From the IMG/VR virus record IMGVR_UViG_3300008050_000070, positions 1-49,120 of that record: a stretch of DNA of 49,120 nt, one strand, 5' to 3'. Shown one piece after another: positions 1 through 26,223 of the stretch; position 1 is the stretch's first letter, and the number at the start of each line of letters is the position of its first letter. Origin of the DNA: a virus. Below the pieces are notes generated by a model. The model was not told the origin of the DNA, searched no databases, and worked only from the letters and a program-made list of their open reading frames with translations. The translations under genes were made by a program, and so were the position numbers.

Positions 1-2
1 CA

Positions 3-395: not shown

Positions 396-410
396 AAATA
401 GGTAGTTTAT

Positions 411-767: not shown

Positions 768-1086
768 TCGCTATGTCGACTCGAAGAAGCGAGCACAGGG
801 AAAGGTTGAAAATGCATTCAATGACTTCAAGGAGCTAATGAATGACAAGACTCACCCGGACAATCAAACTCCGGGATATAAAAATAATGTTGTTGCAACA
901 TTAAATCGCTTGCTTTCTGCTGCAGATGAAATGGATTCGGCGAACCCCGGCGAAGGAATTTTTGGGTTAGTAATTTTGTGCCTTCGCTCTTCCTTGAAGC
1001 TTCGAGACGATAATTTAAGATTAGAGGTCGAGCTGAGAGATTTGAAGCGCGAAATTGGAAGACTAAAAAAGCAGAAAAGAAATTGA
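739..1086 (+). CDS. Hypothetical coiled-coil protein, 115 aa
   Basis: The start is placed at ATG 739 because an AAAGGAGGA Shine-Dalgarno (722-730) lies at ideal distance; an in-frame TTG at 733 is too close to it. The first ~80 residues are hydrophilic and helical. The last ~35 residues (LKLRDDNLRLEVELRDLKR and on) have a leucine-rich heptad pattern ending in a basic tail, typical of a short coiled coil that dimerises. I do not recognise a family. It overlaps the end of the preceding gene, and its stop codon overlaps the start of the next, so the three small genes probably form one translational unit. Confidence 0.65.
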   Translation: MSDLKIPTNNRYVDSKKRAQGKVENAFNDFKELMNDKTHPDNQTPGYKNNVVATLNRLLSAADEMDSANPGEGIFGLVILCLRSSLKLRDDNLRLEVELRDLKREIGRLKKQKRN

Positions 1087-1319
1087 CAGATAGAGACAAT
1101 ATTTTGGCGATGCTCTTGGAGATGGTCGACGAGGCAGCCTCCCTGGTCAGATCTCAGGAAGACCTGGGAAGGAAACTTTCAGTAGACATATCCGATGATC
1201 GTGCTTATACTGCTGTTGTGGCGTACAAGGCCGCCTTAGTCGATGCCGTTGAAAACATAAGGAATAATAATGATTTCCGCAAAAAAAGAAGTAATCTTCC
1301 AAAGGGAGGGGGTAGATAA
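1083..1319 (+). CDS. Hypothetical small protein, 78 aa (TTG start)
   Basis: A 78-residue, mostly helical, acidic protein with a basic C-terminal tail (FRKKRSNLPKGGGR). The TTG start at 1083 overlaps the preceding stop in a TTGA arrangement, which fits translational coupling; an ATG at 1110 is an alternative. Its 3' end overlaps the FtsK-like gene by 50 bases. No known domain is seen. The call rests mainly on position and coupling, so confidence is moderate. Confidence 0.5.
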   Translation: MTDRDNILAMLLEMVDEAASLVRSQEDLGRKLSVDISDDRAYTAVVAYKAALVDAVENIRNNNDFRKKRSNLPKGGGR

Positions 1320-2385
1320 GCTGTACTCTCTTCTTAAGTCGTTTAATATTGGGTGTGATTTTATATCCGTTGATAGTAGGGCGTTCTTTGACGTCTATGA
1401 CGTGAAGCTGTCCAATGGGACGAGAGCCTCGAAGGTAGGAAGAGTCCTGCCGGATATCGGTATGGCAATGCAGTCGTGCTCAACGCCCATAGGCCATCCT
1501 GTTATGAGGGAGGGCGTTTATCGAATAAGCATTCAAAGAGAAGAAATTAGATCACCAAATCTAATCGACGTAGTAAGTCTATTCGATGGAAAAATGGCTT
1601 CGCCAGCAGCCATCGGCACAGACTCTCACGGAGAGCCCTTGTTCGTAGATTTAAATACTCTACCAAATCTTCTTATCGGAGGGGTTCCTGGTTCTGGGAA
1701 GAGTGTTCTGCTGCACTCTATAATTTTATCATTGCTGAAGTCTAAGTCGGAAATATATTTGGTCGACCCAAAAATGGTTGAGTTTAATTCTTATGAAAAC
1801 TTTTCCCAAGTCTCAAGGATAGAGAACTCGGTAGAGGGAATGCTTGAAATAATAGATGAAATTTATGATATTATGAATTCCAGATTCATAAGATTCAAGT
1901 CCAAGTCGGCAAGGAATCTTCGTGAATATAATGATAGCGTTATTGCAAAAAAGGCACTCGCGCCGATAGTCCTGGTGGTGGACGAGTGGGCGGATATGGT
2001 GTTGCAATCTAATGATATTCAAAAGCCTTTATGCGCTATTGCGCAAAAAGGTCGAGCTGCCGGAATCTCTATAGTTCTAGCGACCCAGAGGCCTTCGTCG
2101 AAGGTCATCTCTGGGCTGATTAAGGCTAATTTTCCAGGAAGAATTGCGCTAAAGGTCGCCTCGGCTGTTGACAGTCGTGTAATTTTAGATGCAAAGGGGG
2201 CCGAGAATCTGACGGACGTTGGAATGGGGCTCTTTTTAGATGGAAGAGTATCTAGTCCGATAATGTTTCGTGCGCCATTTATAGAAAATGTAAAAGATGA
2301 AATTGAAAAATTATCCCTGAACCTTGAAGCCCATACAAGGAAAAAGACTTCATTCTGGGGAGGGCTCTTTAGAAGTGGGAGTTAG
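1270..2385 (+). CDS. FtsK/SpoIIIE-like DNA translocase ATPase
   Basis: A 371-residue P-loop ATPase of the FtsK/HerA superfamily. Walker A is GVPGSGKS at about residues 138-145. Walker B is VLVVDEWAD with D238 and E239. It is followed by the family-typical ATQRPSSKVISGLIKANFPGR segment, the VDSRVILD stretch and GAENLTDVGMG. These are hallmarks of the FtsK motor core, a hexameric double-stranded DNA pump. Unlike cellular FtsK there are no N-terminal membrane segments, and I see no C-terminal winged-helix gamma domain, so this looks like a soluble motor-only form. It sits directly upstream of the primase zinc-finger gene and SbcCD, which suggests a role in DNA replication, repair or segregation rather than packaging, since a separate terminase is present. 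The ATG at 1270 follows AAGGA at good spacing. Confidence 0.9.
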   Translation: MISAKKEVIFQREGVDKLYSLLKSFNIGCDFISVDSRAFFDVYDVKLSNGTRASKVGRVLPDIGMAMQSCSTPIGHPVMREGVYRISIQREEIRSPNLIDVVSLFDGKMASPAAIGTDSHGEPLFVDLNTLPNLLIGGVPGSGKSVLLHSIILSLLKSKSEIYLVDPKMVEFNSYENFSQVSRIENSVEGMLEIIDEIYDIMNSRFIRFKSKSARNLREYNDSVIAKKALAPIVLVVDEWADMVLQSNDIQKPLCAIAQKGRAAGISIVLATQRPSSKVISGLIKANFPGRIALKVASAVDSRVILDAKGAENLTDVGMGLFLDGRVSSPIMFRAPFIENVKDEIEKLSLNLEAHTRKKTSFWGGLFRSGS

Positions 2386-2911
2386 AAAGGACGATATAAT
2401 TAGGGGGGTTGGATTTTTAGATATTCTGGATCTGTTAAAGATAAGGCCAGAAAGAGTATCTTCTGGAAACTTTACCCACAGATGTTGCTGCCCATCTCCA
2501 GATCACAAGGGCGGTCGAGAGAGGACGAGCTCTCTATATATAGACTCGGTTAATAATAATTTTTATTGCTACGGCTGTTCGAGTAGCCACAATCAAATAG
2601 ACTTTTATATATTAGCAACAGGGTGTGACTTTATGGCAGCCCTCCGCGCACTAGAGCCATTAATTGATCACTCAAAGACCGACAAGTCCGGGGTGATAGT
2701 GACTAAGCCGTCTACTTTTTCATCGCTGATGGATATATCTGTTTTCTTTCGAAGTCTCCAGGAGAGGTATCCGAATGACGAAGAGTGGATAATGACACTA
2801 ATGAAGAGGACTGACCACCACATTGAAAGCATTGGCCAGAATGAGGCCAAAAAATGTAAAGCACTCCTCTCTGAAGTAAAGAGAGTGTGCAAAAAGAGGT
2901 ATAATAAATGA
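2375..2911 (+). CDS. Primase CHC2 zinc-finger domain protein (split DnaG, N-terminal half)
   Basis: About 178 residues. The zinc-binding domain matches the DnaG CHC2 fold: CPSPDH (C39, H44) followed by FYCYGC (C65, C68), then a helix equivalent to DnaG's DFL segment (IDFYILATG). In DnaG this domain recognises template sequence for primer synthesis. No TOPRIM catalytic domain follows. The C-terminal ~90 residues are helical and unrecognised. The catalytic half appears to be the separate gene at 27761-28504, so primase is split. I place the start at GTG 2375, preceded by GGGGAGGG; an upstream TTG at 2324 would overlap the FtsK-like gene by 62 bases. The stop overlaps the SbcD-like start (ATGA). 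Confidence 0.8.
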   Translation: MGVRKDDIIRGVGFLDILDLLKIRPERVSSGNFTHRCCCPSPDHKGGRERTSSLYIDSVNNNFYCYGCSSSHNQIDFYILATGCDFMAALRALEPLIDHSKTDKSGVIVTKPSTFSSLMDISVFFRSLQERYPNDEEWIMTLMKRTDHHIESIGQNEAKKCKALLSEVKRVCKKRYNK

Positions 2912-4071
2912 GAGTAGTTATTTGCGGAGACTCACACATAGGGGCGGTCTTTGGCCTTGGAAGAACAAAGGACGCCGGCGGTAACACGAGGATAGATGAT
3001 TACGAGAAGAGTCTAAATCATATTATAGATCACTGTATAGATACAAGTGTAGATGTTTTTATTCAAACCGGAGACTTGTTTGAGCACAGAAACCCAACTC
3101 CAGAGCATATTGATATAGCAAATCGAGCTCTCAAGAGGTTGTCTAAAGCGAATATTGCTACTGTTGTAATTATGGGAAACCATGACTACAGAAGGAGCGG
3201 GGATTCATTTACGAGTTCAATTACATCGCTCCCAGCGAAAGACTACCCCAATGTCAGGCTGATTGTAGAGCCAGAGGTTGTAACCTTTTTTAATTCAAAA
3301 AATGAGGGAGTAAACATCTTGTTAATGCCATACCGAGACAAAAGAATGTATGCGGGAGAGTCCTGCGCAGAGCGGTCTGCCGGATACGAGGCTCACGTAA
3401 GAGAATTGTGCAGATCTGTGGATAACAAGTCTCCGATAATGGCCGTCGGGCATAACTTTTATTACGAAGGAAGCTATAACGACTATGGCGGATCGGAGAT
3501 CCTGGTTAACGCAAATTGCTTTGAGACATGCGACCTATCGGTGATGGGACACTTGCATACATTTAGAATTCTTAAGAAAAAGAATCCACCATCAATTTAC
3601 GTAGGCTCTATGGAGCGTACGAACTTTGGAGACGCCAACGTCGATAAGTACTTTATCGATTATGACGTGGTAAATAAAAAGGTAAATTTTCATAAAGTTC
3701 CCACGAGAGACCTGATCGATTCGGTTATTGATATTTCTGATGCAACCTTTGCCAACTGCAAGGACAGGATAGAGGAGGAGGTCTCAAAAATCGACATGAA
3801 AGACAAGATTGTAAGGCTGAAGGTTTCAGTAAAAGAGTCTGTGCTTCCAGCTGCGGATAAGCTTTACGTTCAAAAGCTAGCAAGAGATGCTGGTGCGTTT
3901 TTCGTCTCCAGGGTAACGGTAGAGCCGGTAATAGTAAGAATTATAAGAGATAATGATATCTTAGATCATGAAGATGATTATGAAATGTTTTCGGCGTTTA
4001 TCGCTAGCCAGGGCATTGAATCGAAAATGAAAGAGAAGCTTTTATCTGAAGCGAAAAAGATTATAGGATAA
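2908..4071 (+). CDS. SbcD/Mre11-like exonuclease subunit (T4 gp47-like)
   Basis: A 387-residue calcineurin-like metallophosphoesterase. The five metal-binding motifs appear in order: GDSHIG near residue 7, GDLFEHRNP near 57, GNHDYRR near 91, GHNFYYEG, and GHLHTF. This is the pattern of SbcD/Mre11/T4 gp47 nucleases, which use two manganese ions to degrade DNA ends. The partner ATPase gene (SbcC/gp46-like) starts three bases after its stop, so the two are made together and should form the end-resection complex that feeds recombination-dependent replication. The start ATG overlaps the previous stop (ATGA). The C-terminal ~120 residues, after the nuclease domain, are the region that caps the domain and contacts the ATPase in this family. 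Confidence 0.93.
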   Translation: MRVVICGDSHIGAVFGLGRTKDAGGNTRIDDYEKSLNHIIDHCIDTSVDVFIQTGDLFEHRNPTPEHIDIANRALKRLSKANIATVVIMGNHDYRRSGDSFTSSITSLPAKDYPNVRLIVEPEVVTFFNSKNEGVNILLMPYRDKRMYAGESCAERSAGYEAHVRELCRSVDNKSPIMAVGHNFYYEGSYNDYGGSEILVNANCFETCDLSVMGHLHTFRILKKKNPPSIYVGSMERTNFGDANVDKYFIDYDVVNKKVNFHKVPTRDLIDSVIDISDATFANCKDRIEEEVSKIDMKDKIVRLKVSVKESVLPAADKLYVQKLARDAGAFFVSRVTVEPVIVRIIRDNDILDHEDDYEMFSAFIASQGIESKMKEKLLSEAKKIIG

Positions 4072-4074
4072 TTA

Positions 4075-7000
4075 ATGATTCCACTTAGTTTGAAGTTAAA
4101 AAACTTTTTCTCTCACGCAGATAGTGAGATTGATTTTTCCCAGTTCCAGTCGGTACTCCTGATTGGAAATACAGAGGGAGATTATGGAAAGTCCAACGGG
4201 TCCGGGAAGTGCCTTTCTGGGGATACGATTCTGACCGAGGCGTTTTCTGGAGAAAAGATAACCGTCAAAGATCTCCATGAGAACTTTAAGGAGTTCTGGA
4301 TATGGGGGTTGGACGAAGACCTCCTTATGCGCCCAGTGGAAGTTGAAGCAACGCACCTGTCCGGAGAAAAGGACATCTTAGAAGTAGAGATGACCTCTGG
4401 TGGTATCGAGAGAGTTTCCCGTACCCATCCCGTAATGATATCCGATACGGAATGTATACCTGCCGAAGATTTGATCGTCGGGGACTTTGTTGCCTCCCCA
4501 CGCGCACTGCCCGTAGTCAATCCCCGTTCTTCAATGAGGATCGAAGAGGCTCGGCTTCTCGGCCTATATGCGGCGGAGGGCGGGCTTACTGGTACATCGT
4601 GCAACTTTACGAACACGGATGACGAGATTATAAGCATTGCTCACAATGACGTACAGAGTATTTTTGGCGCAGACCTATCCCGGCGGGGAATAACATACTC
4701 CTTGGTAATAACGAAGAACATTAAGGACATAAGAAGGCAAATTTTAGATAGAATGATACAGATCGGCCTATCTTTAAAGAAGGAATCGCCATCAAATCAT
4801 AAAAGAATTGAATCTCTATCCAGCACCTTGTGCTACGATAAGCTTATTTCTTATGATGATTCTAATCTTACATCGCTAGCCAAAGTTGCAAATTCTCCGA
4901 GGACGGCTCGTGAGTTTTTGTCAAAGCATGCTCTTTGGGGGAGCCTCGCTATAAACAAAAGAGTCCCAAGAGCAATCTTTTCGGAATCAGAAGAGAATGT
5001 AGGCGCTTTCGTTGGAATGTTCTTTTCCGGCGACGGGTACGTCTCTTCTTCTGACAGTTCATCTCCGGAGGTTTCTATCGGTCTCGGCTCCAAGGGGTTT
5101 GTATACGACCTTCAAGAGCTCTTTTTGAGATTTGGAATAAAGGCATCAATAAGGTACAAGCGAGTTGCCGACAAGTACGATTCATGGGTCTTGTCGATTC
5201 ATTCGAATTATAATAATATTTTAAAGTTTTACAACCTTGTCGATGGTCATGTTTATGGGCCGAAAAGATCGAGGATAGATACCCTGATCGCCTCCTCTCG
5301 AAAGAGGAAGGCGAATCCTAATCGTGATGTCATTCCATCTTCCCTCTTCTGCGGGGAGATAATAGAAGGAATTGAGTCTGGGGGGCTGCGAGGGCATCGG
5401 TCAGAACTGAGGCTTACTAAGAGGCAGCTGTCCCAATCTAACATGTCCAGGGAAAGACTGGGTAAATATGCCGACGCCCTGGGAAGCAATAGGCTCCGGA
5501 GCCTTAGCGAGTCTGATATATACTGGGATAAAATAAAGAGAATCGATAGTATCGGCAAGGCTCAGACTTATGACATACAGGTTGGAAATGATACTCATCT
5601 ATACGCCCTGAATGGATTTATTACGCATAATTCGTCAATTTTCGAAAGCATGCTTTGGGTGCTTTTTAATAAGGCAAGGTCGGCCATGATGGACGACATA
5701 GTCCTGTGGGGAGAAACTTCGTGCTGCGTGGAGTTTGAATTTCAACATAATAATCGAGTGTATCGAGTTATAAGAGAGAGAAACAGGGGGAGCTCTACTT
5801 CAACCGTGGAGTTGGCTCAAAAAGATGATACTGGAGCCTGGAAGGATCTCTCTGGATCTACTTCTGGTGCTACAAATAGCAGCATAGAGGAGCTTATTGG
5901 GCTTGATCACAAAACATTTACAAGCTCTATATATTTTCGTCAAAATGATATATCAGAGTTTGCAGAGGCGGATCCGTCTAGAAAGAAGGATATTCTAAAG
6001 TCTATAGTTGACATCTCTAGATGGGATTCTTACGAGAAAGAGGCCAAGAAAAAAGCTCGATTATTAAAATCAGAAACTGACATATTAGAGGCGGCAGTTA
6101 GCACCTATGCAGAGACGGTCGAAGACCTGGGAGATGCGAGTGCTGAGTTAAAGGAGGTGACGACAATAGTCGCAAATGCAAAGAAGGAGTTGTCAGCAAC
6201 CAACAAGCATCTTGAGGGCCTTGTCTCTCAATATTCCAATATGAAAAAAGCTCTTGATACAGATAAATACGATAAGATCTTAGAGTCAATCGCAGCTCTC
6301 GAAGAGAGGGAGGCAGATCTTTCTGGTGATGCAAATGAGCTTAGCCAGCAGGTTGAAGACAAGACAGATGAAGTAGATGCCGAGCAGAAGAAAATTGAAG
6401 AAAAGAGAGCATCATTATCTCAGTTATCAAAAGTAGAAAGTTGTGATGATAAACTCTCAGAACTTAGAGAGGAGCTAATATCCTTATCTTCGTCAGGATC
6501 CTCTGCAAAGGATGCGCTAGGGTCTCTTAGTGAGATTCACATAACTCCGGGCGAGTGCTATGTGTGCCATCAGGCTATTGAGTCGTCCCTGTACGAGTCC
6601 CTGAGAGATGATCATAAGGAAAAGTCAGACCGCTATTCCGAGTCAATGACTCGAGCTGCATCAAAGATTAGGATTGTAAAAAAGAGCATCTCAGATTATG
6701 AGGGGTATAAGAAGGAAAACTTAAGAATAGACACCCTGGAAAAGGAGCTGTCATCTTTTGAGTTCCGCCACTCAATTTTGAGCGAAGGGCTCGAGAGAGA
6801 GAAGAAGAAGCTGATAGAGCTGAAGCGTGTACTTGGAAACGTTAGTTCGAAGTTGTCTGTAAATAAAGATATATTAAAATCCCTTCAAAACTCCGACTTC
6901 CAGGTTCTTAGAGATAAGGTTAAGGACCTAAAAGATCGACGCGAAGACCTTGACTCTATCATTTCTGGTAACTCCGAAGATGTCGGAAGGCTAACAGAAA

Positions 7001-7602
7001 GGGTCTCTCAGCTCGAGCAGTCGGTAAAAGATATGAGAGGAAAGAAGACATCTTTGTCATCTAAGCTTAAAGATATATCTTTATTTAAAAGTATGTCAAA
7101 AATGATGGGCAAGAACGGAATTCAAACCATTCTTTTGGACGGAATCATTGAAGACCTAGAGTCTTCGTCAAATAAGATTTTATCATCTATCTGTAATGAG
7201 CCATCAACAATAACCCTAGAGACGCAAAGAACCGGATCAGATGGGGTCTCTACGGTGGAGACTTTGGATCTTAAGGTTAAAAAAGATGGAGTACTACACG
7301 GGTTCAAGTCGCTTAGTGGTGGAGAAAAGTTTCGAATATCCTTGTCGCTTCGGGTGGCCTTGAGCGATCTTTCCAGCCGCTACGGGGGCTCCTCGCTGGA
7401 GTTTTTGCTGCTGGACGAGGTGAACTCCCCCTTGGACCGCTTCGGCGTTGAGACGCTATTTGTGAGCGTTATTCGTGCGCTAGAGGCTCAATATAAAATC
7501 ATGGTGATAACCCACGACGAGACGCTTAAGGAAAAGTTTGATCACGTTATTGATGTAACGAAGGTGAATGGGAAAAGTTCGATCGACTTTTTGGCCAGAT
7601 AG
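4075..7602 (+). CDS. SbcC/Rad50-like ATPase (T4 gp46-like), intein-containing precursor
   Basis: A 1175-residue precursor. Removing a 474-residue intein (residues 46-519) gives a ~701-residue Rad50/SbcC/gp46-type SMC-like ATPase. The spliced Walker A would read NGSGK-SS. Long coiled coils follow, with a zinc hook CYVC (C828, C831 of the precursor) in the middle. Near the C-terminus are the ABC signature LSGGEKFR, the Walker B FLLLDEVNSPLD and the ITHDE switch region. With the SbcD-like nuclease just upstream it should form the DNA-end resection machine. The ATPase cannot bind ATP until the intein splices, because the insertion separates the P-loop lysine from its serine. The start ATG follows the SbcD stop by three bases. 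Confidence 0.95.
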   Translation: MIPLSLKLKNFFSHADSEIDFSQFQSVLLIGNTEGDYGKSNGSGKCLSGDTILTEAFSGEKITVKDLHENFKEFWIWGLDEDLLMRPVEVEATHLSGEKDILEVEMTSGGIERVSRTHPVMISDTECIPAEDLIVGDFVASPRALPVVNPRSSMRIEEARLLGLYAAEGGLTGTSCNFTNTDDEIISIAHNDVQSIFGADLSRRGITYSLVITKNIKDIRRQILDRMIQIGLSLKKESPSNHKRIESLSSTLCYDKLISYDDSNLTSLAKVANSPRTAREFLSKHALWGSLAINKRVPRAIFSESEENVGAFVGMFFSGDGYVSSSDSSSPEVSIGLGSKGFVYDLQELFLRFGIKASIRYKRVADKYDSWVLSIHSNYNNILKFYNLVDGHVYGPKRSRIDTLIASSRKRKANPNRDVIPSSLFCGEIIEGIESGGLRGHRSELRLTKRQLSQSNMSRERLGKYADALGSNRLRSLSESDIYWDKIKRIDSIGKAQTYDIQVGNDTHLYALNGFITHNSSIFESMLWVLFNKARSAMMDDIVLWGETSCCVEFEFQHNNRVYRVIRERNRGSSTSTVELAQKDDTGAWKDLSGSTSGATNSSIEELIGLDHKTFTSSIYFRQNDISEFAEADPSRKKDILKSIVDISRWDSYEKEAKKKARLLKSETDILEAAVSTYAETVEDLGDASAELKEVTTIVANAKKELSATNKHLEGLVSQYSNMKKALDTDKYDKILESIAALEEREADLSGDANELSQQVEDKTDEVDAEQKKIEEKRASLSQLSKVESCDDKLSELREELISLSSSGSSAKDALGSLSEIHITPGECYVCHQAIESSLYESLRDDHKEKSDRYSESMTRAASKIRIVKKSISDYEGYKKENLRIDTLEKELSSFEFRHSILSEGLEREKKKLIELKRVLGNVSSKLSVNKDILKSLQNSDFQVLRDKVKDLKDRREDLDSIISGNSEDVGRLTERVSQLEQSVKDMRGKKTSLSSKLKDISLFKSMSKMMGKNGIQTILLDGIIEDLESSSNKILSSICNEPSTITLETQRTGSDGVSTVETLDLKVKKDGVLHGFKSLSGGEKFRISLSLRVALSDLSSRYGGSSLEFLLLDEVNSPLDRFGVETLFVSVIRALEAQYKIMVITHDETLKEKFDHVIDVTKVNGKSSIDFLAR
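4210..5631 (+). mobile_element. Intein with LAGLIDADG homing endonuclease in the SbcC-like P-loop
   Basis: An in-frame protein intron of 474 residues. It begins with Cys1 (CLSGDTILT, splicing block A) and has a block B RTHPVM histidine. It ends with the block F/G pattern YDIQVGNDTHLYALNGFITHN, and the first downstream residue is Ser+1. These residues meet the requirements for standard self-splicing. Two LAGLIDADG-type motifs, LLGLYAAEGGLTG and FVGMFFSGDGYVS, mark a probably active double-motif homing endonuclease between the splicing blocks. The insertion lies exactly between the lysine and serine of the Walker A motif, a highly conserved target typical of inteins. Confidence 0.95.
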
Positions 7603-7635
7603 TTACTAATTTTATTGATTATCTTAGAGGTAACA

Positions 7636-8532
7636 ATGTCCGGAATAGTCTTAACGCTAACAGAGAGTGAGAGAGAGCTTGTATCTGGAATTCCAGAGTA
7701 CGTAGAGTTTGATACAAATGTTCCTGCAACAGTATTTTATACGCTAGATGGCACCACGCCGGACTCATCATCTTTGATGGCCGCCGAGCGAATATACTTG
7801 CCAACGTCAGGGGCGTCTGTTGCGCTGGCTGCAATTGCCATATCTGGAGGTATATCTTCTTCGGTGTTAGAGGAGGAGTATATTACAGATAGCACCGATC
7901 TGTCTGGCCCAAGGCACCTTGGAGATGAGGGCATAAGCATTCTTCCGTTCGGAGAAGATGCGGTGGATAATATGTCATATTTAATTGACGGAGGAAAGGC
8001 ACAAGAGACCTCTATAGATTTTTCTTCTTTAGATATTTCGGCATCGGAAACAAGCAAAAGCGGAACTCCAAATGAAGGAGGCCTTAGTGTTGATTTCATA
8101 AAAAAAGCCATAAGCTCAGATATGGAAACAGATTTTTATGGAAAAAGAACTACGGTAAATGATATAAGCTTCAATCCAAAGGCCGGAGTAATCGTAATTG
8201 ATGGAACCTCGAAAGAGAAAGCAGAAGAACAAGTGGTCAAAATTGTGAACCGTGCTTATAATAATCTAGATACAGTATCAAAGTTTTATGACGAAAATTG
8301 GAAGCAACAAGAGCAAGTTATTACTGGTAACTTAGTAAGGAGCATCTATAATCCGCAAACAGGGATTATAGCTTTTTTTTACTGGGAGAGCAAAGAGTCA
8401 AGATGGCTTGTCTCTAAGCAAAAGGTTGATCCAAAAGAGTTTAAATTAAAACATTCATCCGGCGGCCGCCGGGGTGCTGGTCGTTTTGTCTATCGATGGA
8501 TTCAAGAAAGGCCATCTTCTAAAATATTCTAA
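7636..8532 (+). CDS. Hypothetical protein with Fn3-like/chitobiase C-terminal (CHB_HEX_C_1) domain
   Basis: The ATG at 7636 follows TAGAGG at close spacing and is preferred to TTG 7615, giving about 298 residues. Residues ~20-75 contain TVFYTLDGTTPDSSS, a signature of the Fn3-like CHB_HEX_C_1 fold found in surface and carbohydrate-associated proteins. A middle, low-complexity acidic region follows. The C-terminal half (PKAGVIVIDGTSKEKAEEQV onward, ending in the basic HSSGGRRGAGRFVYRW) is unrecognised. Such beta-sandwich domains are common in virion proteins, yet the gene lies between SbcC and a PD-(D/E)XK nuclease. Its role is unknown. Confidence 0.75.
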   Translation: MSGIVLTLTESERELVSGIPEYVEFDTNVPATVFYTLDGTTPDSSSLMAAERIYLPTSGASVALAAIAISGGISSSVLEEEYITDSTDLSGPRHLGDEGISILPFGEDAVDNMSYLIDGGKAQETSIDFSSLDISASETSKSGTPNEGGLSVDFIKKAISSDMETDFYGKRTTVNDISFNPKAGVIVIDGTSKEKAEEQVVKIVNRAYNNLDTVSKFYDENWKQQEQVITGNLVRSIYNPQTGIIAFFYWESKESRWLVSKQKVDPKEFKLKHSSGGRRGAGRFVYRWIQERPSSKIF

Positions 8533-8542
8533 GGAGCTACTT

Positions 8543-9316
8543 TTGTTAAAGTTATCAGTCTCTTCTATGGGCACATTTGATAAGTGCCCAAAGAAGTATC
8601 ATTATCGCTATATAGAAAAACCAGACGTGCCAAGGGTAAAGCATAATTTTACTGAGTTTGGATCATGCGCCCACCTAATGCTGGAGATGTTTCATGAGTA
8701 CATAATGAGCCACGGGCCAGTAGACGAGAAGGATTATCCGGCGCTTATGAAAAAGTGCTTTAAAGATTCTATTAAAAAGTTTGATTTTTATCTATTAAAC
8801 ACAAAAACATGGTCCCCAGACGGAGATAAGGATGGTATCGTATATCTTCGAGAAATAATGCAGTCGTATCTTGATCATATCAGGGATGACGGCATGCCCG
8901 AGGTGATAGGAGTGGAGGTTCCCTACTCATTCGAGATAGAAGAAGGAGTTACGGTAAGAGGATACATCGATAGGCTGGATCGAATATCTGAAGGCGAATA
9001 CCATGTTGTCGACTATAAGACCAGCAAGAGCCTAAAGTATATGACTAGCTTTCAGTTGCTGGTTTATGCAGAGGCAATTAAGAGATTGTATCCAGATGCT
9101 ACGGTGATTCACGGATCATATCTCATGTTAAAACATAATTGCAAATATTTAGATTGGACGTTTAATGCCAATGATCTAAAAAAATGCAGAAGCAAGATAG
9201 TAAAAACCGCATCAAATATTCAGACTGAAACACATTGGGTTAAGAAGCCGTCGATTTTGTGTCAGTGGTGTGATTATGAGTCTATATGCCAGGGCTCCTG
9301 GGTAGAGGGCGAGTAA
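8543..9316 (+). CDS. PD-(D/E)XK nuclease, RecB/Cas4-like with probable 4Fe-4S cluster
   Basis: About 257 residues. The start at TTG 8543 is chosen because AAGGAG lies six bases upstream and the protein then begins just before the conserved LSVSSMGTFDKCPKKYHYRY motif of RecB/Cas4/AddB-like nucleases. The active-site core follows as VRGYIDRLDR and VVDYKTSK, then the QLLVYAEA helix. One cysteine near the N-terminus (C15) and a C-x2-C-x5-C group at the end (C240, C243, C249) match the four-cysteine iron-sulfur clamp of Cas4 and AddB. In phages, enzymes of this type are DNA exonucleases in recombination. No cas1 or cas2 is nearby, so a CRISPR role is not supported. Confidence 0.9.
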   Translation: MLKLSVSSMGTFDKCPKKYHYRYIEKPDVPRVKHNFTEFGSCAHLMLEMFHEYIMSHGPVDEKDYPALMKKCFKDSIKKFDFYLLNTKTWSPDGDKDGIVYLREIMQSYLDHIRDDGMPEVIGVEVPYSFEIEEGVTVRGYIDRLDRISEGEYHVVDYKTSKSLKYMTSFQLLVYAEAIKRLYPDATVIHGSYLMLKHNCKYLDWTFNANDLKKCRSKIVKTASNIQTETHWVKKPSILCQWCDYESICQGSWVEGE

Positions 9317-9361
9317 GAATTGATACAATTATTTAAGCCACAAGCAAGGCCGGAGAAGTTA

Positions 9362-10150
9362 ATGAAGAGTTATTCTGGTGTAGTCAGAATGTATAATGAG
9401 GAGATATATGTAGATACTATTTCGGGCGAGGGCTATGGAGCGGTCTTAAAGAAGATAGATCCGCTTTTGTGCAAGATGGCGTCTAGAACACATATGCCTG
9501 GATTTAGATTTGAAGACATAAAGCAAGAGCTAGTAATATTAGCAATCGAGGGGATCAAGGCCTTTGACCCCGAAAAGAAAGTAAAGCTTAGTACCTTCTT
9601 GCATATTCATCTTAGAAACAAGTTGGTATCAAAAATAAGAAGTATAAATAAACTTTCAAATGATGCATTTTCATTAAAGTCAAAAAATGGAAATATACTT
9701 TGCGATTGTGACGGTGAGATTCTAAAGTCTAATGATCCAAATAGTGATATTTTGGGCATATGTGATTCGTGCGGAAAGGAGCATAAGGCTCTTTTTAGAA
9801 AATCACGCGGAGAAATATCATTTTCTCAGATAAATCCAAAAAAGAATAAGAGCGGCGACGAGTACGGAGAGTTCTTTCAAGACAGTATAGACGCGGATGC
9901 TTCTATTTATGGGGACAAAAGAACCTCTCTGCAGATGATGGAGTTTCAAAGATCCTTGCGTTCATTAACTGATTCTATTGATCCAAAGACCGCGAAGATT
10001 TTAGAATTAATCTGCTTATACGATCTATCCCTAAAGGATGCTGCGGATAAGGTCGGAATAACTGGATGGGCTGCGAGTATAAAGCTTAAAAAGCTTGGAA
10101 AGAAGCCAAGAACCAAGCGCTTAATAGCGGAAATACTCAATAGGGACTGA
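9362..10150 (+). CDS. Putative RNA polymerase sigma-like factor
   Basis: About 262 residues. A region resembling sigma70 region 2 is seen at FEDIKQELVILAIEGIKAFD followed by LSTFLHIHLRNKLVSKIRS. Then comes an inserted segment with a CDCDGE...CDSCG zinc-ribbon-like group of four cysteines. The C-terminus (KTAKILELICLYDLSLKDAADKVG) resembles the helix-turn-helix of sigma region 4. Phages use such factors, for example T4 gp55, to direct host RNA polymerase to late promoters. ATG 9362 has GGAG six bases upstream; TTG 9320 is an alternative start adding 14 residues. It sits between nuclease and unknown genes in the same operon. The sigma assignment is an inference from pattern, not a certainty. 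Confidence 0.7.
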   Translation: MKSYSGVVRMYNEEIYVDTISGEGYGAVLKKIDPLLCKMASRTHMPGFRFEDIKQELVILAIEGIKAFDPEKKVKLSTFLHIHLRNKLVSKIRSINKLSNDAFSLKSKNGNILCDCDGEILKSNDPNSDILGICDSCGKEHKALFRKSRGEISFSQINPKKNKSGDEYGEFFQDSIDADASIYGDKRTSLQMMEFQRSLRSLTDSIDPKTAKILELICLYDLSLKDAADKVGITGWAASIKLKKLGKKPRTKRLIAEILNRD

Positions 10151-10152
10151 CC

Positions 10153-11505
10153 ATGTCTGGAAGCGACATCGCCGAGTTCATTGAGGCCGAAAGGGAAATA
10201 TCAAGGTATAAAATCTTATTTCTAAAGCGAAGTGGGGCAGAGAAGAATAAGGAGCAGCTTTATATAGAGGAGCTTATTCTTAGTACCAGGTTTGAAGATA
10301 TTGAGTGGAAGACGATCCAGGAGTTACGCGAAGGAGTGAGTCTCTTTCGTAGCTCAGTGGAAGAGTTCGAAAGAAAGTATCCAGACATTTGCATCAAAAG
10401 TTCTCCAAAGCCTTGTGAGAATGGGGGCTCTAGCCCAGAGGTAGTAAGAAGAAAACACCTATTTGTAGAGAATTTATATCTTTATTTGCTCGAAATTCAA
10501 ATTCAAGAAGTAAATTCGGTTCAAGATCCTTATTTTTATGAACTAGCTCGGTCAAAAAGCAAGTCAAAGGATATAGATCTAAAGACAATGCAGATTGATG
10601 AGGTGCTGAAGATAGAGACCGCATATGTATCAAAGTGCAGGGCAAGAGCTCAGGCTATAATATATTCTATGGGCCGGTATTCTTTTTTAAAGTTGCGCGA
10701 GTTTAATTTAAGGTATGGAGAAATAACGAATGAAAATGCGAAATCTGCAGAAATCGCATTGGATTCTATAATCTCTGGTCTTGAGCTCTCCGGCTATTCT
10801 TACTTCAATGAGGGCCTAAAGGAGTTATCGCAACTCATAGTCGGGACCATGGGCGAGAATAATATGACAAGCTCCATAAGTCCGCTTGTAAATTTATGCG
10901 ATGAGTTTCCAGATTTTGAGTTTTCAATAAATAAAATCAACCCCCCCGGTACGGAGATTTTCGATCCCAGAAGCTTTCTTCCTAATAAGAAGCTTGCGAA
11001 CGCACGTGCGTTTGCCCTAATTACTCCTATAAAAAGATCTGGAAACGAATATATAAACTTGATGTCAAAGAAAATTTTGGATAAAGGCGGAAACGATATC
11101 TCTCATCTTTTTGAAAATTCCTTATTTAATATTAAAGCTGGAAGCGTATATTATAAGGCATTGGCATGCAGACCGATTTGGGATGTTTTGTCAGAAAGCA
11201 TCTCTGATGCAAAATTAATTTTAAACGTTACCGACCCGGTGGACGGGCATGGTTTAAAGATGATTGCAAATTCTGCCTCAAAGTGTAGGATATATTTAGA
11301 TAGAAAAAGCAGCAGAATCCTTATTCCAAAAACGAGGTCCGAAAGCCTTCATTTTATCCAGATGGATGCGTGGAAGAGTAATGTTATTCAAAAAATAAAT
11401 GACGAATATAATTATGCTAATAAAAACCTTACCACTGATAGGGCAAAGAGGCTCGATAACAGAAGGGGCTTCATAACGGAGCTTTTAAGCTCCGTTAAGT
11501 ATTAA
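10153..11505 (+). CDS. Hypothetical protein, 450 aa
   Basis: I do not recognise this 450-residue protein. It is largely helical and charged, with an N-terminal half rich in E/K (AEREISRYKILFLKRSG) and a C-terminal half of mixed content around YINLMSKKILDKGGNDISHLF and LILNVTDPVDGHGLKMIAN. It has no signal peptide, membrane segment or evident catalytic motif. It follows the sigma-like gene by two bases and precedes the giant 2216-residue gene by nine bases, so all three are probably co-expressed. Its last codons form a strong hairpin (11474-11497). Confidence 0.85.
   Translation: MSGSDIAEFIEAEREISRYKILFLKRSGAEKNKEQLYIEELILSTRFEDIEWKTIQELREGVSLFRSSVEEFERKYPDICIKSSPKPCENGGSSPEVVRRKHLFVENLYLYLLEIQIQEVNSVQDPYFYELARSKSKSKDIDLKTMQIDEVLKIETAYVSKCRARAQAIIYSMGRYSFLKLREFNLRYGEITNENAKSAEIALDSIISGLELSGYSYFNEGLKELSQLIVGTMGENNMTSSISPLVNLCDEFPDFEFSINKINPPGTEIFDPRSFLPNKKLANARAFALITPIKRSGNEYINLMSKKILDKGGNDISHLFENSLFNIKAGSVYYKALACRPIWDVLSESISDAKLILNVTDPVDGHGLKMIANSASKCRIYLDRKSSRILIPKTRSESLHFIQMDAWKSNVIQKINDEYNYANKNLTTDRAKRLDNRRGFITELLSSVKY
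11474..11497 (+). promoter_or_regulatory. Strong inverted repeat at gene end, before the giant gene's ribosome-binding site
   Basis: Perfect 11-base arms, TAACGGAGCTT and AAGCTCCGTTA, are separated by two bases. In RNA this makes a stable hairpin ending seven bases before the AGAGGA Shine-Dalgarno of the gene at 11515. There is no run of T after it, so a simple intrinsic terminator is unlikely. An RNA-processing site, a stability element or a translation control is possible. It also encodes the C-terminal residues of the 450-residue protein, so base pairing may partly be chance. Confidence 0.5.
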
Positions 11506-18620: not shown

Positions 18621-21600
18621 ATGGCCAATGGAAAATTTGTTTCTCTTCATAATCACACAGAGCTTGGCAGCCCGTTAGACGGAATGAACGGTGTTTATGA
18701 TATCTTTGAGAGAGCGAAAGAGGTCGGCCATCCGGGGCTTGCGATAACAGATCATGGAACTTTGACTGCCCATTATGATGCGTTTAAGGCATCTGAAAAA
18801 ACCGGGGTAAAACTCATTCCTGGGTGTGAGTTCTATTTTTCTAACGATCCAGCCGAGCGCAGATCTTATCATATGATAATGCTGCCAAGGACTCAGCTGG
18901 GATATCAAAATATCCTTAGGCTTAATTATCTTGGCTTTAGAAATCAAGTTTCTGGCTATATGGGGAAGAAGACTCCGCGCATAACCTGGGAGCATATTGA
19001 AAAGTATAATAAGGATATAATTGCGCTGACTGCTTGCCCTTCTGGGCTGATAGCGAGAACTCTGATTACGGAGCAGAACGAAGAGCTTGCGGTCCAATAT
19101 TTAAATAGATTTAATTCTATATTTCAAGATGGATTTTTTCTAGAAATTCAGCCACATGCTCTTGACGTTACTACAAAGGATGGAAAGCCAATCAGCCAGC
19201 CAATGCTGAATCAGGCATTAGTTCGCTTGTCCCACGATATGGATATACCATATGTAATAACCTGTGATGCGCACTATAGGGATGCAGAGCACGCAAAGTA
19301 TCATGACTTTATGTTGGCAATCAAAGACAAAAAAGCTCTTGACGACCCGACGAGGTTCAAATATGGCGTTCAGGATATGTACCTAAAGGCCGAGGATGAA
19401 ATAACGGATTTTTTCGGAAGTGAAATATCAAAAGTTGGCATGGAAAACTCCATGAAAATAATGAATGCTTGTGAGTATCCAAACTATTTGAGAGCAAAAG
19501 GCCCCCAGCTGCCTAGCTACCCCGTTAGTGACTCCTCAGATTATCAAAAGTTTTTAAAATGGAAAGAGAGCAAGAGCCTAATCGGAGTAGAAGATAAGGA
19601 ATACCTCAGGTACAAATGTATTGAGGGATTTAAGAGCAAGTTGGGGTCTTTGTCAAAAGAAGATAAGGCCGCATACTGGGAGCGAGTAAAGGTGGAGCTA
19701 GATGTTCTGGAAGAGAAAGATTTTTCTTCTTATATGCTTATTGTTGCTGATTATATAAATTGGGCAAAAAAGAGAATGCCCGTTGGAACGGCGAGAGGAA
19801 GCTCTGCCGGTTCTATGGTTGCATATCTTACTGGAATTACTGGGATTGATCCAATTAAGTACGATTTAATCTTTGAGAGATTTCACAATAACCAAAAAAC
19901 ATCATTTCCAGATATAGATACCGACTTCTCTCGCCCCGGAGATGTAAAGGAGTATCTAAAGGATAAGTATGGGCCCTCAAAGGTTGCCTCTATTTCTAAC
20001 TGGGGAAAGCTATCTCCGAAGGTCGCAATAAAAGATTGCGCCAGAAGCCTTCGGTTGGGCGGGGACAAGTCTACGGCGTTTAAGATTGCAAATTTAATTA
20101 CTCAAAATATGCCAGATTCGAAAACTATTGATGAGGCAGTTCGCGACTCAAAGCATGTAGCAGCATATATGCAGGAGTATCCAGAGTTATACGAGTACAC
20201 ATCAAAATTACAAAATCTAACAAGGAACTGGAGCGTTCATGCCGCTGGGGTCGTCATTGGAAATGAGCCATTATATAGTTTCGTACCTCTAAGGTTAGAT
20301 GACAAAGGGAACACGGTTACTCAGTGGGAGAAGAGCAGGTGCGAGGAGAATGGTTTAATAAAAATGGATCTCTTGGGATTAAAGACTTTGACCGTTATGG
20401 ATGAAGCTCTTTCTCTGATCTTCGGGACAACCGGTGAGTCGATATCTATCGAGAACATTCCACTGGACGACGATAAGGTGTACAACATGATAGGAAGGGG
20501 CGGTACTTCTGGTGTTTTTCAGCTTGAATCATCTTTAACTCCATTGTGCATAAAGCTTAAGCCAAGAAGCATATCCGAGATATCTGACATCAATGCAATC
20601 GGAAGGCCGTCATGTAAGGCTGAGTCTAGGGCGAAATATATCAGAAGAAAACTTGGAAGAGAAGACTTTAAAATAGAGCATCCAAATTTAGAAAGAGCAT
20701 TAAAGAGTACCTTCGGAATTTTGGTCTATGAAGAGCAAGCAATGTTTATAGCACAAGACGTTGCAGGGTGGGATCTAAACCAGGCAGACTCATTGAGAAA
20801 ATTAAGCAAATTAAAAGGCAAAGATCCCGCCTTAGCGATGAAGGTACAGTCTGATTTTATAAAAGACTCCATGAAGTATTCCGGAATGACTCACAAGATG
20901 GCATGTGAAGTCTTTAGAGATTATATAGAAGTATTGCAGGGGTATTCGTTTAATAAAAGTCATTCAATTTCTTATTCTCATATTTCATATTATACCGCAT
21001 GGCTAAGGTGTCATTATCCGGCAGAGTTTATGTGTGCCCTGATAAACTCAGAAGATCAGAATAGTGACGCAGTTCAGGAATATATAGATAGTTGTGGGTC
21101 TCTTGGGATCAAAATTCTTCCGCCGGATGTAAATAAAAGTGGGGGTAAATATAATATTGTTAACGGAAATATTATTACTGGACTCGCAGCCCTCAAGGGC
21201 GTTGGAGATAAGGCTATAGAGTCAATTTTAGAAAGCCAGCCATTCGCATCGTTCGAAGAGTTTGTCACGAAGAATAACTCCAGAACTGTCGGGAAGATCG
21301 TAATTCAGTCGCTAGCAAGGGCCGGCGCCATGGATGAGTTCGGCAAAACTCGAATGGATATGCATGATAATTATCAAAAATATAGAACAAAAACAAATTC
21401 TGAACTGAAAAAGGGAAAAAGTATTGGCGAAATCAAAATTGATGCTTATCATTCCGACGAATGGGAGAGAAAAGAAGTGCTTTTAGGTGAACAGGCAGTA
21501 TTGGGTCGTGCTATTAGCGGAAATCTACATGAGGTTTTTTCTGACTTCTTTTCCTCTGGCCCGAATGTTCTAAAGTTTGTAAGAATCCCCCTTATGAATA

Positions 21601-21881
21601 AGGGTGATTCCGTTAGAGTTGAGGCCATTATCAAGGCCAAGGTAAAAGAATTTAAGATAAAGAATGGAAAGAATGCGGGGAAGAAGTTTGCAAAATATCT
21701 TATAGAAGATGTTACTGGCCAAACCTGTGGCATGACAGTCTGGGCTGATGACTACTCTAGATATAGAGATATTTTAAAGGACGGATCCCCTCTTAAGGCA
21801 GTCTGCAAGGTGAATGAGTATATGGACAAAAAAGATTTAGCCCTCTCTCATCTCGAGAGAGTATATGGGAGTAGACTATGA
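18621..21881 (+). CDS. dnaE: DNA polymerase III alpha subunit (DnaE family)
   Basis: A 1086-residue replicative C-family polymerase. It opens with a PHP domain (SLHNHTELGSPLDG, AITDHGTL, PGCEFYF). The catalytic palm has the ARGSSAGSMVAYLTGITGIDP segment, the acidic motif PDIDTDF (D431, D433) and IKMDLLGLKTLTVM with D583, matching the three E. coli aspartates. Helix-hairpin-helix and OB-fold regions follow (LAALKGVGDKAIESIL; FAKYLIEDVTGQTCGMTVW). Length is close to that of E. coli DnaE, with a short C-terminus. It would replicate the phage genome, probably with the phage primase and SSB and possibly the host clamp. ATG 18621 has only a weak ribosome-binding site. Its end overlaps the next gene by four bases. 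Confidence 0.96.
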   Translation: MANGKFVSLHNHTELGSPLDGMNGVYDIFERAKEVGHPGLAITDHGTLTAHYDAFKASEKTGVKLIPGCEFYFSNDPAERRSYHMIMLPRTQLGYQNILRLNYLGFRNQVSGYMGKKTPRITWEHIEKYNKDIIALTACPSGLIARTLITEQNEELAVQYLNRFNSIFQDGFFLEIQPHALDVTTKDGKPISQPMLNQALVRLSHDMDIPYVITCDAHYRDAEHAKYHDFMLAIKDKKALDDPTRFKYGVQDMYLKAEDEITDFFGSEISKVGMENSMKIMNACEYPNYLRAKGPQLPSYPVSDSSDYQKFLKWKESKSLIGVEDKEYLRYKCIEGFKSKLGSLSKEDKAAYWERVKVELDVLEEKDFSSYMLIVADYINWAKKRMPVGTARGSSAGSMVAYLTGITGIDPIKYDLIFERFHNNQKTSFPDIDTDFSRPGDVKEYLKDKYGPSKVASISNWGKLSPKVAIKDCARSLRLGGDKSTAFKIANLITQNMPDSKTIDEAVRDSKHVAAYMQEYPELYEYTSKLQNLTRNWSVHAAGVVIGNEPLYSFVPLRLDDKGNTVTQWEKSRCEENGLIKMDLLGLKTLTVMDEALSLIFGTTGESISIENIPLDDDKVYNMIGRGGTSGVFQLESSLTPLCIKLKPRSISEISDINAIGRPSCKAESRAKYIRRKLGREDFKIEHPNLERALKSTFGILVYEEQAMFIAQDVAGWDLNQADSLRKLSKLKGKDPALAMKVQSDFIKDSMKYSGMTHKMACEVFRDYIEVLQGYSFNKSHSISYSHISYYTAWLRCHYPAEFMCALINSEDQNSDAVQEYIDSCGSLGIKILPPDVNKSGGKYNIVNGNIITGLAALKGVGDKAIESILESQPFASFEEFVTKNNSRTVGKIVIQSLARAGAMDEFGKTRMDMHDNYQKYRTKTNSELKKGKSIGEIKIDAYHSDEWERKEVLLGEQAVLGRAISGNLHEVFSDFFSSGPNVLKFVRIPLMNKGDSVRVEAIIKAKVKEFKIKNGKNAGKKFAKYLIEDVTGQTCGMTVWADDYSRYRDILKDGSPLKAVCKVNEYMDKKDLALSHLERVYGSRL

Positions 21882-24041: not shown

Positions 24042-24584
24042 TTGGATACGATTCTTGGGCTGGATATATCATCGTCAGTAATAGGCTGGGCGCTCCTTCG
24101 GGACAATAACGGAGAGGGGGAGCTAATTGATTATGGACACCTTAGACCTCCCGGAAAGCCAAAGGGTTCTATTGCTTTTCGCGCAAGTGCCGCATATGAT
24201 ATGGTGGCGGAACTTCTCGGGAGCAGGACTCCAGATTCCGTTGTGATTGAAGCTTATGCTTCAAAGTTTAGCGCAGGAAGAAGTACCGCAAGAACAATAA
24301 TAGTATTATCTGTATTCAATGAGGTAATATCCATGGCGTGTCTTCGCGAGGCATCTATAGAGCCGCATAAATACGCAGTATCGACAATTAGATCGTGCTT
24401 ATCAAAGATGGGCGGGAAAAAGGTATCTTCAAAAGAAGAAGCGTTTGACTTTATCGTTGGAAGTGTTTCTGGATTTGAAGTCCGCGAGAATAGAGCGGGC
24501 AACCTTGCAAAGCAATGCTTAGACGAAGCAGATGCAATAGCAGTTGCATTAACTCACATTTATAAGGAAAACAATAATGGCTAA
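24042..24584 (+). CDS. RuvC-like Holliday-junction resolvase
   Basis: About 180 residues with an RNase H-like (RuvC) fold. The catalytic acidic residues are in ILGLDISSSVIGWALL (first strand, D), VVIEAY (E) and the C-terminal LDEADAIAVALTH (D). This matches RuvC and related phage resolvases, which cut four-way DNA junctions. It would resolve recombination and replication branches before packaging. I choose TTG 24042 because GGAG is seven bases upstream and the protein then begins right at the first core strand; an upstream GTG/ATG-type start at 24003 lies inside the terminator. It overlaps the GroEL gene by eight bases. Confidence 0.85.
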   Translation: MDTILGLDISSSVIGWALLRDNNGEGELIDYGHLRPPGKPKGSIAFRASAAYDMVAELLGSRTPDSVVIEAYASKFSAGRSTARTIIVLSVFNEVISMACLREASIEPHKYAVSTIRSCLSKMGGKKVSSKEEAFDFIVGSVSGFEVRENRAGNLAKQCLDEADAIAVALTHIYKENNNG

Positions 24585-26223
24585 AGATATTTTGCACTCC
24601 ACAGCGGCAAGAGATAAGATTTTGTCTGGGGTGGAGAAGTTAGCAAGCGTTGTCGCGGTTACGATGGGACCTCAAGGAAGAAACGTCGTCATCGGCAAGT
24701 TTGTTGGAGCTCCAGTAGTTACAAAGGATGGCGTATCTGTCGCAAGAGAGGTTGTGCTAAGAGATCCGGTGGAAGACTTGGCCTGCCAGCTTGTAAAAGA
24801 AGTTGCAGGAAGAACCGCAGATATCGCAGGAGACGGAACCACAACCGCAACAGTAATGGCTCATGAAATTATCTCCAGAGGGGCAGTCCTTATGGAGTCG
24901 GGCTATAGCCCGCTTGATTTTAGAGATGGGCTTACTTGGGCTGTAGAGCAGATTTCAAAAAACTTAGATAGCATATCTATTCAAACTAACGGACATGATA
25001 TGGTAAAAAGCATTGCCACTATATCTGCAAATAACGACCACCTCTTGGGAGGGAAGATTGCAGAGGCATTCGATTCGGTCGGGTTCTCCGGAACAGTAAC
25101 GGCAGAGGCGTCTCCCGGCGGAGAAACTACGGTTAGAATTGTGGATGGGGTAGAGCTTAAAACTGGATATGTTACTCCTGCATTTTTGGCGGATAATAAC
25201 CGCGGAAGCATTGTTATGGAGAATTGTAATGTTCTCATTGTGGACAGAGAAGTAACGCACTTAACGGATTGCATGGCAATGCTTAATAGCCTGTCAAATG
25301 ACAATAAGCCGCTGCTGCTTCTTGCTAGGGCAATAAAACAGGAGGCTCTATCCACGTTGGTCGCGAATAACAAGCTCGGCCGACTAAAAGTGGTGGCGGT
25401 AGAGATTCCTACCATGGGGCCCTCTCAGGCCGACTGGCTAGATGATCTCAGCATGTTGGTTGGTACAAATATTTGCAGCCCCAAGTCGGGCGCCTTGCTC
25501 AGGGATATGAAGGCTTCGGATTTGGGACTTGCCAAGCAAGTGGTTGTTGGGAAATCGACAACAAAAATAATTGATGGAGAAAAAGATTCAGATAGAGTCT
25601 CAAAGAAGATAGAGCAATATAAGCGAGATCAAGACATCTTACTGGGGGATTCCGAAAGAATCGATTTGAAAAAGAGGCTTTCATTTTTGAATAGTCGCGC
25701 AGCTGTAATAACAGTGGGTTACAGCACGGAACTCGAACTCAGAGAGAAGGGCGACCGAATGGATGACGCTCTTAGTGCAACCTTGGCGGCAATAGAGGAG
25801 GGAGTGGTCCCTGGTGGTGGAGTTGCGATGCTTCGTGCTGCAAATATGATTGATTTATCTGAGATAGACGAGAGGCTTAGGCCTGCCGCAGAGGTTTTGA
25901 TAAAATCATGTGCCAGACCAATTTCTCAAATTTTAAAGAATGGATTTATAGACCCAGAGCCTATCATCTCAAAGATTCTTGAGTCTGACAATATAAATTT
26001 TGGGTATAATGCCGCAACCAATACATACGCAGACATGTTTGATGCGGGAGTGCTGGACCCGAAGAAGGTTACCAGAACTGCGGTTGAGAATGCATCAAGT
26101 ATAGCGTTATTGCTTCTAAATACAGAATCGATAGTATCAGAGGCCCCAGATGACCCATCGAGCTGGCAGCCTCCGGCCGGATGGCGCCCGCCACAAAATG
26201 GCAATTTAAATCACAAATATTAA
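24577..26223 (+). CDS. groL: GroEL-family chaperonin (HSP60)
   Basis: A 548-residue group I chaperonin. ATP-binding motifs VTMGPQGRNVVIGK, TKDGVSVA and AGDGTTTATV (D86) are intact, and so is the C-terminal equatorial motif DALSATLAAIEEGVVPGGGVAML with the catalytic aspartate. Length equals that of E. coli GroEL. The C-terminal tail is unusual: instead of Gly-Gly-Met repeats it ends in PPAGWRPPQNGNLNHKY. Some large phages carry their own GroEL, which may fold phage proteins without a co-chaperonin. No groES is seen in the window. It overlaps the resolvase end by eight bases, starting behind AAGGAAAA. Confidence 0.95.
   Translation: MAKDILHSTAARDKILSGVEKLASVVAVTMGPQGRNVVIGKFVGAPVVTKDGVSVAREVVLRDPVEDLACQLVKEVAGRTADIAGDGTTTATVMAHEIISRGAVLMESGYSPLDFRDGLTWAVEQISKNLDSISIQTNGHDMVKSIATISANNDHLLGGKIAEAFDSVGFSGTVTAEASPGGETTVRIVDGVELKTGYVTPAFLADNNRGSIVMENCNVLIVDREVTHLTDCMAMLNSLSNDNKPLLLLARAIKQEALSTLVANNKLGRLKVVAVEIPTMGPSQADWLDDLSMLVGTNICSPKSGALLRDMKASDLGLAKQVVVGKSTTKIIDGEKDSDRVSKKIEQYKRDQDILLGDSERIDLKKRLSFLNSRAAVITVGYSTELELREKGDRMDDALSATLAAIEEGVVPGGGVAMLRAANMIDLSEIDERLRPAAEVLIKSCARPISQILKNGFIDPEPIISKILESDNINFGYNAATNTYADMFDAGVLDPKKVTRTAVENASSIALLLLNTESIVSEAPDDPSSWQPPAGWRPPQNGNLNHKY

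Follow-up and report, generated by a model that had tools for sequence, protein, structure and literature searches.

The locus considered here lies in a 49,120-nucleotide stretch of viral DNA (IMG/VR record IMGVR_UViG_3300008050_000070, positions 1 to 49,120, hereafter the window) and raises the question of why the Walker A loop of an SbcC/Rad50-like ATPase is split, exactly between its lysine and its serine, by 474 residues; namely, what the insert is, how it works, and how it came to reside in this gene. In the reading favored with high confidence, the insert is a class-1-like intein equipped with a LAGLIDADG homing endonuclease, placed at the P-loop of the ATPase and undergoing ordinary splicing and homing; this confidence refers to the nature and the working of the element, and not to its history of gain or loss. 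The features of the locus are collected in Table 1, in which the splicing blocks and the LAGLIDADG motifs carry their customary names.

The Cys1 codon begins at position 4210 and the Asn474 codon finishes at 5631, followed by Ser+1, and all the residues of a class-1-type intein are present, that is, the nucleophiles C1 and S+1, the terminal N474, and the penultimate H473. The usual pattern of block B is TxxH, and in the window intein it reads S70-R-T-H73 with a serine replacing the usual threonine, a departure that counts against the favored reading. The Pfam model Intein_splicing matches over its curated cut-off (5.1e-13), and a phmmer search against the PDB with the window intein retrieved the DnaB mini-intein 1mi8 (3.7e-8) and PI-PfuI 1dq3 (3.2e-7). 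The Pfam model LAGLIDADG_3 is also over its curated cut-off (3.3e-13; PF14528 also 5.8e-14) along a stretch that spans the second motif only, and both motifs of a two-motif LAGLIDADG enzyme, with the acids E123 and D275, are recognized by inspection. These acids are both retained in the window and in the viral relative L031, whose inteins are only 52% identical, an argument that the endonuclease has stayed in use over a long time; of the three inteins in which an endonuclease persists, two retain both acids.

The structure predicted by AlphaFold2 from the window intein with six relatives reaches a mean pLDDT of 81.6 and a pTM of 0.81 (pLDDT is below 50 at intein residues 124-135, 164-169, 193-197, and 199-206), and its top Foldseek matches in the PDB are the intein-homing endonucleases TliVMA 7qss (4.4e-17) and PI-PfuI 1dq3 (1.8e-16), followed by further ones that include PhoVMA and PI-SceI; DnaB and RecA mini-inteins occur among and below them. 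The predicted fold agrees with an intein carrying a homing endonuclease, as does the phmmer search. The coordinates and the residue assignments with which the preliminary description had delimited an intein proved right on the basis of the open frame, the flanks, and the two Pfam models over cut-off, and its claim that a LAGLIDADG-bearing intein separates lysine from serine in the P-loop of an SbcC/gp46-like ATPase is borne out by motifs, Pfam, and fold.

Table 1. Coordinates of the features of the locus and of further genes in the window (aa, amino acids; a slash marks the splice junction).
Feature	Positions	Strand	Remarks
FtsK/SpoIIIE-like ATPase	1270..2385		5' of a DnaG-type zinc-finger gene and of the SbcD gene
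SbcD/Mre11-like nuclease gene	2908..4071	+	directly 5' of the ATPase gene; Metallophos 2e-13, phrog_100 SbcD-like 2.6e-38
SbcC/Rad50/gp46-like ATPase precursor gene, intein inside	4075..7602	+	1175 codons and stop, single uninterrupted frame
N-extein, 45 aa	4075..4209	+	Walker A ...SNGSGK at its end; joined to the C-extein in intein-free relatives
Intein, 474 aa, Cys1-Asn474	4210..5631	+	CLSGDT...NGFITHN; PF14890 and PF14528 over cut-off; predicted intein fold
Splicing block A	4210..4248	+	CLSGDTILTEAFS; C1, L2, S3, G4, T6 invariant in 4/4 SbcC-site inteins
Splicing block B region	4387..4437	+	...SRTHPVM; T72, H73, P74 invariant in 4/4 SbcC-site inteins
First LAGLIDADG-type motif	4555..4584	+	LLGLYAAEGG, acid E123; by eye, outside the Pfam match; E123 kept in L031 and L114
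Second LAGLIDADG-type motif	5008..5037	+	FVGMFFSGDG, acid D275; within the PF14528 stretch; N in L114
Splicing block F	5563..5610	+	QTYDIQVGNDTHLYAL (QTYDIQV...HLYAL); D455 invariant in 4/4 SbcC-site inteins
Splicing block G	5611..5634	+	NGFITHN/S, with His473-Asn474 and Ser+1 (codon TCG)
C-extein, 656 aa	5632..7599	+	first residue is the Walker A serine (SSIFESMLW)
Zinc-hook CxxC, putative	6556..6567	+	CYVC; C-extein
ABC signature, putative	7312..7326	+	LSGGE; C-extein
Walker B, putative	7405..7419	+	LLLDE; C-extein
H-loop, putative	7507..7518	+	ITHD; C-extein
DNA polymerase with DnaE-like relatives	18621..21881		
GroEL-like chaperonin, phage-encoded	24577..26223		phrog_5725 2.7e-127

The N-extein, which ends in ...GNTEGDYGKSNGSGK, is on its own matched by no family model and was placed by means of the intein-free relatives. 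The SbcC-like model phrog_77, for which there is no curated cut-off, matches the precursor over residues 488-1170 (1.4e-73); about 300 profile positions precede the matched part, and the idea that an intein is built into this profile was rejected, five isolated inteins being without a phrog_77 match at E up to 1. The NCBIfam Rad50/SbcC models match parts of the C-extein (e.g., residues 519-782 and 928-1169) at 8.3e-34 and 1.4e-32, with the Rad50 models and TIGR00618 sbcc at about 1e-25 to 1e-33, all of them below their cut-offs, and Pfam AAA_23 reaches 22.9 bits on the host protein, below its cut-off of 27; these sub-threshold matches of curated models weigh against the assignment. The set of features of SbcC/Rad50/gp46 proteins is present and includes Walker A, the CxxC hook, the LSGG signature, Walker B, the H-loop, and an adjacent SbcD/Mre11-like gene, whose product is matched by TIGR00619 sbcd slightly below cut-off (1.6e-21); here CYVC, LSGGE, LLLDE, and ITHD are taken to be the zinc hook, ABC signature, Walker B, and H-loop of SbcC/Rad50 ATPases. 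Window positions 1-10631 match part of a 316,664-bp contig without a mismatch, which points to a jumbo phage. Other predicted products of the window are a UvsX-like recombinase, a large terminase, and a portal protein. In L043, similar-looking frames were seen by eye in the same order as in the window (FtsK/SpoIIIE-like, DnaG-type zinc-finger, SbcD).

The relatives of this SbcC were gathered by searching viral contigs with alignments of the extein, were reached via peptide patterns, and constitute a sample with near-copies rather than a census. Sixty-four loci were classified and 53 retained, giving 54 rows together with the window; those omitted are L037, a second contig with the L031 allele, L148, which is cut so that the P-loop lies outside it, and L070, L071, and L141-L147, which encode ATPases of greater distance, each with its P-loop uninterrupted. 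The remaining loci of the scans are repeats of these or of the window's contigs, or belong to a distant set (L044-L069, 26 loci, together with repeats of its contigs), 22 of which were inspected, counting the near-set L047; L059 and L064 fall outside the inspected loci, L066-L068 sit on contigs already classified, and every inspected distant locus has an uninterrupted P-loop.

A joined P-loop is found exactly at the intein point in 50 of the 54 rows, and an intein occupies it in the other four. In the intein-free L036, for example, ...GNTEGDYDKSNGSGK is directly followed by SSIFESMLW, the flanks being contiguous; the rejoining of the extein flanks into a continuous P-loop, which the preliminary description had proposed to look for in intein-free homologues, is in fact observed. 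No row carries the segment as a normal domain, which the preliminary description had named as a finding that would refute it, since the 50 are cleanly without it and the three others besides the window have inteins of 473, 375, and 183 aa; this comparison thus came out in favor of the intein. The window intein is full, with both endonuclease acids, and the 473-aa intein of L031 also has both; the 375-aa intein of L114 shows a gap of 94 residues within its endonuclease, along with the substitution D275N in the second motif, and L084 has a mini-intein of 183 aa that is without a LAGLIDADG match and keeps the splicing blocks. Used as a query against viral contigs, the L043/L084 mini-intein gave no match besides itself. 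The four forms, all at this one position, resemble the stages through which an element would pass in the homing cycle outlined in PMC1654191.

Inteins were also met outside this site. A scan of genome contigs with three SbcC-site inteins and two peptide patterns found no cellular SbcC with an intein and confirmed two loci, one terminase-like in Chengkuizengella marina and one SMC-like in a Woesearchaeota MAG, both by eye; the latter (L156, JACQSW010000021.1, ORF 182-5410) has its intein at the same P-loop point, GPNGSGK/C ... VHN/S. In L005 (5001-6233) a P-loop intein is found in a different SbcC/SMC-like ATPase, so classified by eye, with the junctions GATDCGK/C...VHN/S, the Pfam intein domains over cut-off, and AAA_23 slightly under it, while L020 (934-3783, on the contig of L003/L031) is a second intein, in a protein terminase-like by eye, just past a Walker B-looking FDE. 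In the 485-kb uncultured phage LR745208.1, eight matches to the splicing domain are spread over seven open frames, two of which are over the family cut-off, and one match lies at a P-loop-like site of a protein DnaB-like by eye. Two candidates were rejected: a possible intein in the gp46 of Synechococcus phage ACG-2014f KJ019142, because this gene is 1728 nt long, the same as in KJ019066, and UvsX matches in T4-like phages, which did not hold as P-loop inteins in the one case examined, L157; there the uvsX gene is broken at another site, toward the C terminus, and its two parts flank an endonuclease gene.

The element should, from its sequence, be able to splice, to cut DNA, and to spread by homing. 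Translation would yield a 1175-residue precursor with a split Walker A loop, in which Cys1, the block B histidine, the block F aspartate, His473-Asn474, and Ser+1 would perform class-1-type splicing, giving a 701-residue SbcC with ...SNGSGK-SSIFE... restored; the unspliced ATPase can reasonably be expected to be inactive. The LAGLIDADG endonuclease would cut the intein-free sbcC of co-infecting relatives, and repair of the break would copy the intein into the cut allele. The earlier suggestion that this cut is repaired by the very complex that the intein interrupts appears weak, because the recipient of homing would carry an intact sbcC and the repair need not wait for splicing. The homing of T4 introns uses phage recombination functions, and a role of gp46/gp47 is given only as "possibly" in the account of PMC2988022.

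The intein is rare in this sample (4/54) and scattered on the host tree, which fits a mobile element. The tree (quick IQ-TREE, SH-aLRT only) was built from 52 of the 54 rows, those whose C-extein is 600 aa or longer, and it takes four changes, every one of them forced by starred branches, to account for the four rows with an intein; permuting the labels gives a mean of 3.9 changes, which means that the intein label is not clustered at all. The tree-path neighbours of the intein rows are all intein-free, that is, L115/L127 for the window (92, not starred), L103/L104/L123 for L031 (99, starred), L086 for L084 (95, starred), and L113 for L114 (100, starred). The best-surviving alternative, possible but rather unlikely, is that the intein was ancestral to these phages and has been precisely lost many times, homing being minor now. 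It agrees with the equal divergence of the window and L031 (52% identity between inteins and 51% between C-exteins), with the fact that the row closest to the window extein by percent identity (51%) is L031, which itself holds an intein, and with a tree that yields changes without direction, gain and loss being indistinguishable from the changes alone. However, many precise losses would be required among the 50 empty rows, two of the three endonuclease-bearing inteins have neither catalytic-motif acid replaced, and the inteins of the window, L031, and L114 are all 51-52% identical in pairs although their C-exteins range from 43 to 51%. In particular, L114 shares 51% of the intein and 45% of the C-extein with the window, and 52% and 43%, respectively, with L031, so that its intein is somewhat more alike than its C-extein, a weak sign of transfer. 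The identities of L084 to the window, L031, and L114 (37, 24, and 31% for the intein vs. 34, 33, and 30% for the C-extein) give no sign of transfer. Taken together, the identities are compatible with transfers that took place long ago or with ancient vertical descent followed by losses, and recent homing is not indicated.

The codons at the insertion point show a further pattern. In all four intein alleles the lysine codon AAG is followed by a Ser+1 codon TCG (window, L031, and L084) or TCC (L114). The comparison was made on the same 52 rows as the tree, the 48 intein-free ones being reduced to 40 distinct rows, among which serine is present in 38, encoded by TCG or TCC in one of these (L086) and by AGY in 27, and the lysine codon is AAG in 17 of 40. 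Ser+1 is the most extreme (1/38; next 11/40) of 99 conserved C-extein columns, a column being counted if the four intein rows agree on its residue, if no fewer than 70% of the distinct intein-free rows share that residue, and if its codons vary. The Fisher p is 4e-5 for a test picked after the pattern had been seen and on related rows, and the pattern is for these reasons treated as a lead. The flank could have travelled with the intein by co-conversion, which is known for T4 introns (PMC2988022), or only such sites could be cuttable, or both. A Haloferax paper, citing others, states that single synonymous substitutions are tolerated and non-synonymous ones are not (PMC3024317), which argues against the second reading; yet a single base change does not lead from TCN to AGY. 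According to a survey, conserved target sites make it harder to evolve immunity (PMC2814812). In addition, the inteins in other genes of L005 (AAA/TCT) and L009 (AAG/AGT) indicate that there is no rule for all P-loop inteins. As a speculation to which little probability is given, the Walker A serine codon may be a battleground, in which alleles with AAG followed by TCG or TCC are invadable and intein-free phages are shielded by synonymous recoding, mostly to AGY, that leaves the P-loop functional; if so, the phages would be immune to a homing endonuclease by virtue of the codon that they use for a conserved catalytic residue.

The preliminary description had proposed to tie end resection to intein removal, a link that has found no support so far. 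In this less probable and doubtful alternative to a simply mobile intein, the element is a conditional switch, and splicing, and with it the ATPase and end resection, would await a signal, for example DNA ends, ssDNA, or redox state. The insertion does split the Walker A motif, mycobacterial DnaB inteins are described as responding to stressors (PMC6195587), and the archaeal RadA P-loop intein is reported to splice faster and more accurately with the ssDNA substrate of its host, which makes the idea possible (PMC5790916). Against it, the absence of the intein from 50 of 54 rows and its scattered presence imply that such a function is not conserved, the patchiness speaks against a need of the host, and the intact-looking endonuclease accounts for persistence without host benefit. 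Finally, a lineage-specific inserted SbcC domain with an intein-like look can be practically dismissed in view of the exact splicing residues at both ends, the catalytic loop split between lysine and serine, the intein fold, and the empty sites in relatives.

The preferred reading, a homing intein at the P-loop, concerns a kind of element that is already known, the P-loop being named a "classic" intein insertion site (PMC5050341); P-loop inteins are described in phage terminases, cellular helicases, and recombinases (PMC5050341, PMC6195587, PMC5790916). SbcC/Rad50/gp46 is likely a new host gene for inteins: searches of open-access papers (subscription papers, preprints, and intein databases being outside this scope) turned up no intein described in SbcC, Rad50, or gp46, the papers that name both appearing to do so for unrelated reasons; against 50,697 phage records the window intein gave seven matches, none annotated as SbcC/gp46 (one is unannotated and DnaB-like by eye); and a junction query gave 381 matches, with no intein in the three gp46/SbcC records inspected among the 60 matches listed. 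A Rad50-like end-processing complex is said to be practically universal in jumbo phages (PMC7824862). If the host is indeed new, it would add a gene whose product may process the breaks used by inteins to spread.

In comparison with known systems, the host protein belongs to the same family as T4 gp46, E. coli SbcC, and Rad50, with which it shares Walker A, CxxC, signature, Walker B, H-loop, and the adjacent SbcD-like gene. These model proteins are not known to carry an intein. The splicing-domain sequence and fold are shared with Ssp DnaB 1mi8, PI-PfuI 1dq3, and TliVMA 7qss, and the LAGLIDADG endonuclease fold with the last two, whereas the host proteins of all three are different and the identity in the fold alignments is 16-22%. 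As described in PMC5050341, the TerL1-a inteins of mycobacteriophages also lie between the invariant lysine and the next hydroxyl residue of a phage ATPase P-loop, but their host is the packaging terminase and not an SbcC/Rad50-like ATPase. The RadA mini-intein of Pyrococcus horikoshii and Thermococcus sibericus likewise sits in the P-loop of a recombination ATPase, but it belongs to an archaeal recombinase, is without an endonuclease, and has demonstrated conditional splicing (PMC5790916). The closest counterparts are the IMG/VR contigs L031/L037, L114, and L084, which share with the window the gene, the insertion point, and a homologous splicing domain, and from which it differs in that the endonuclease is decayed in L114 and lost in L084. 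Because a single site of one phage gene family is thus seen with a full, a decayed, a mini-, or no intein, the set is well suited to tests of the homing cycle and of site evasion in phages.
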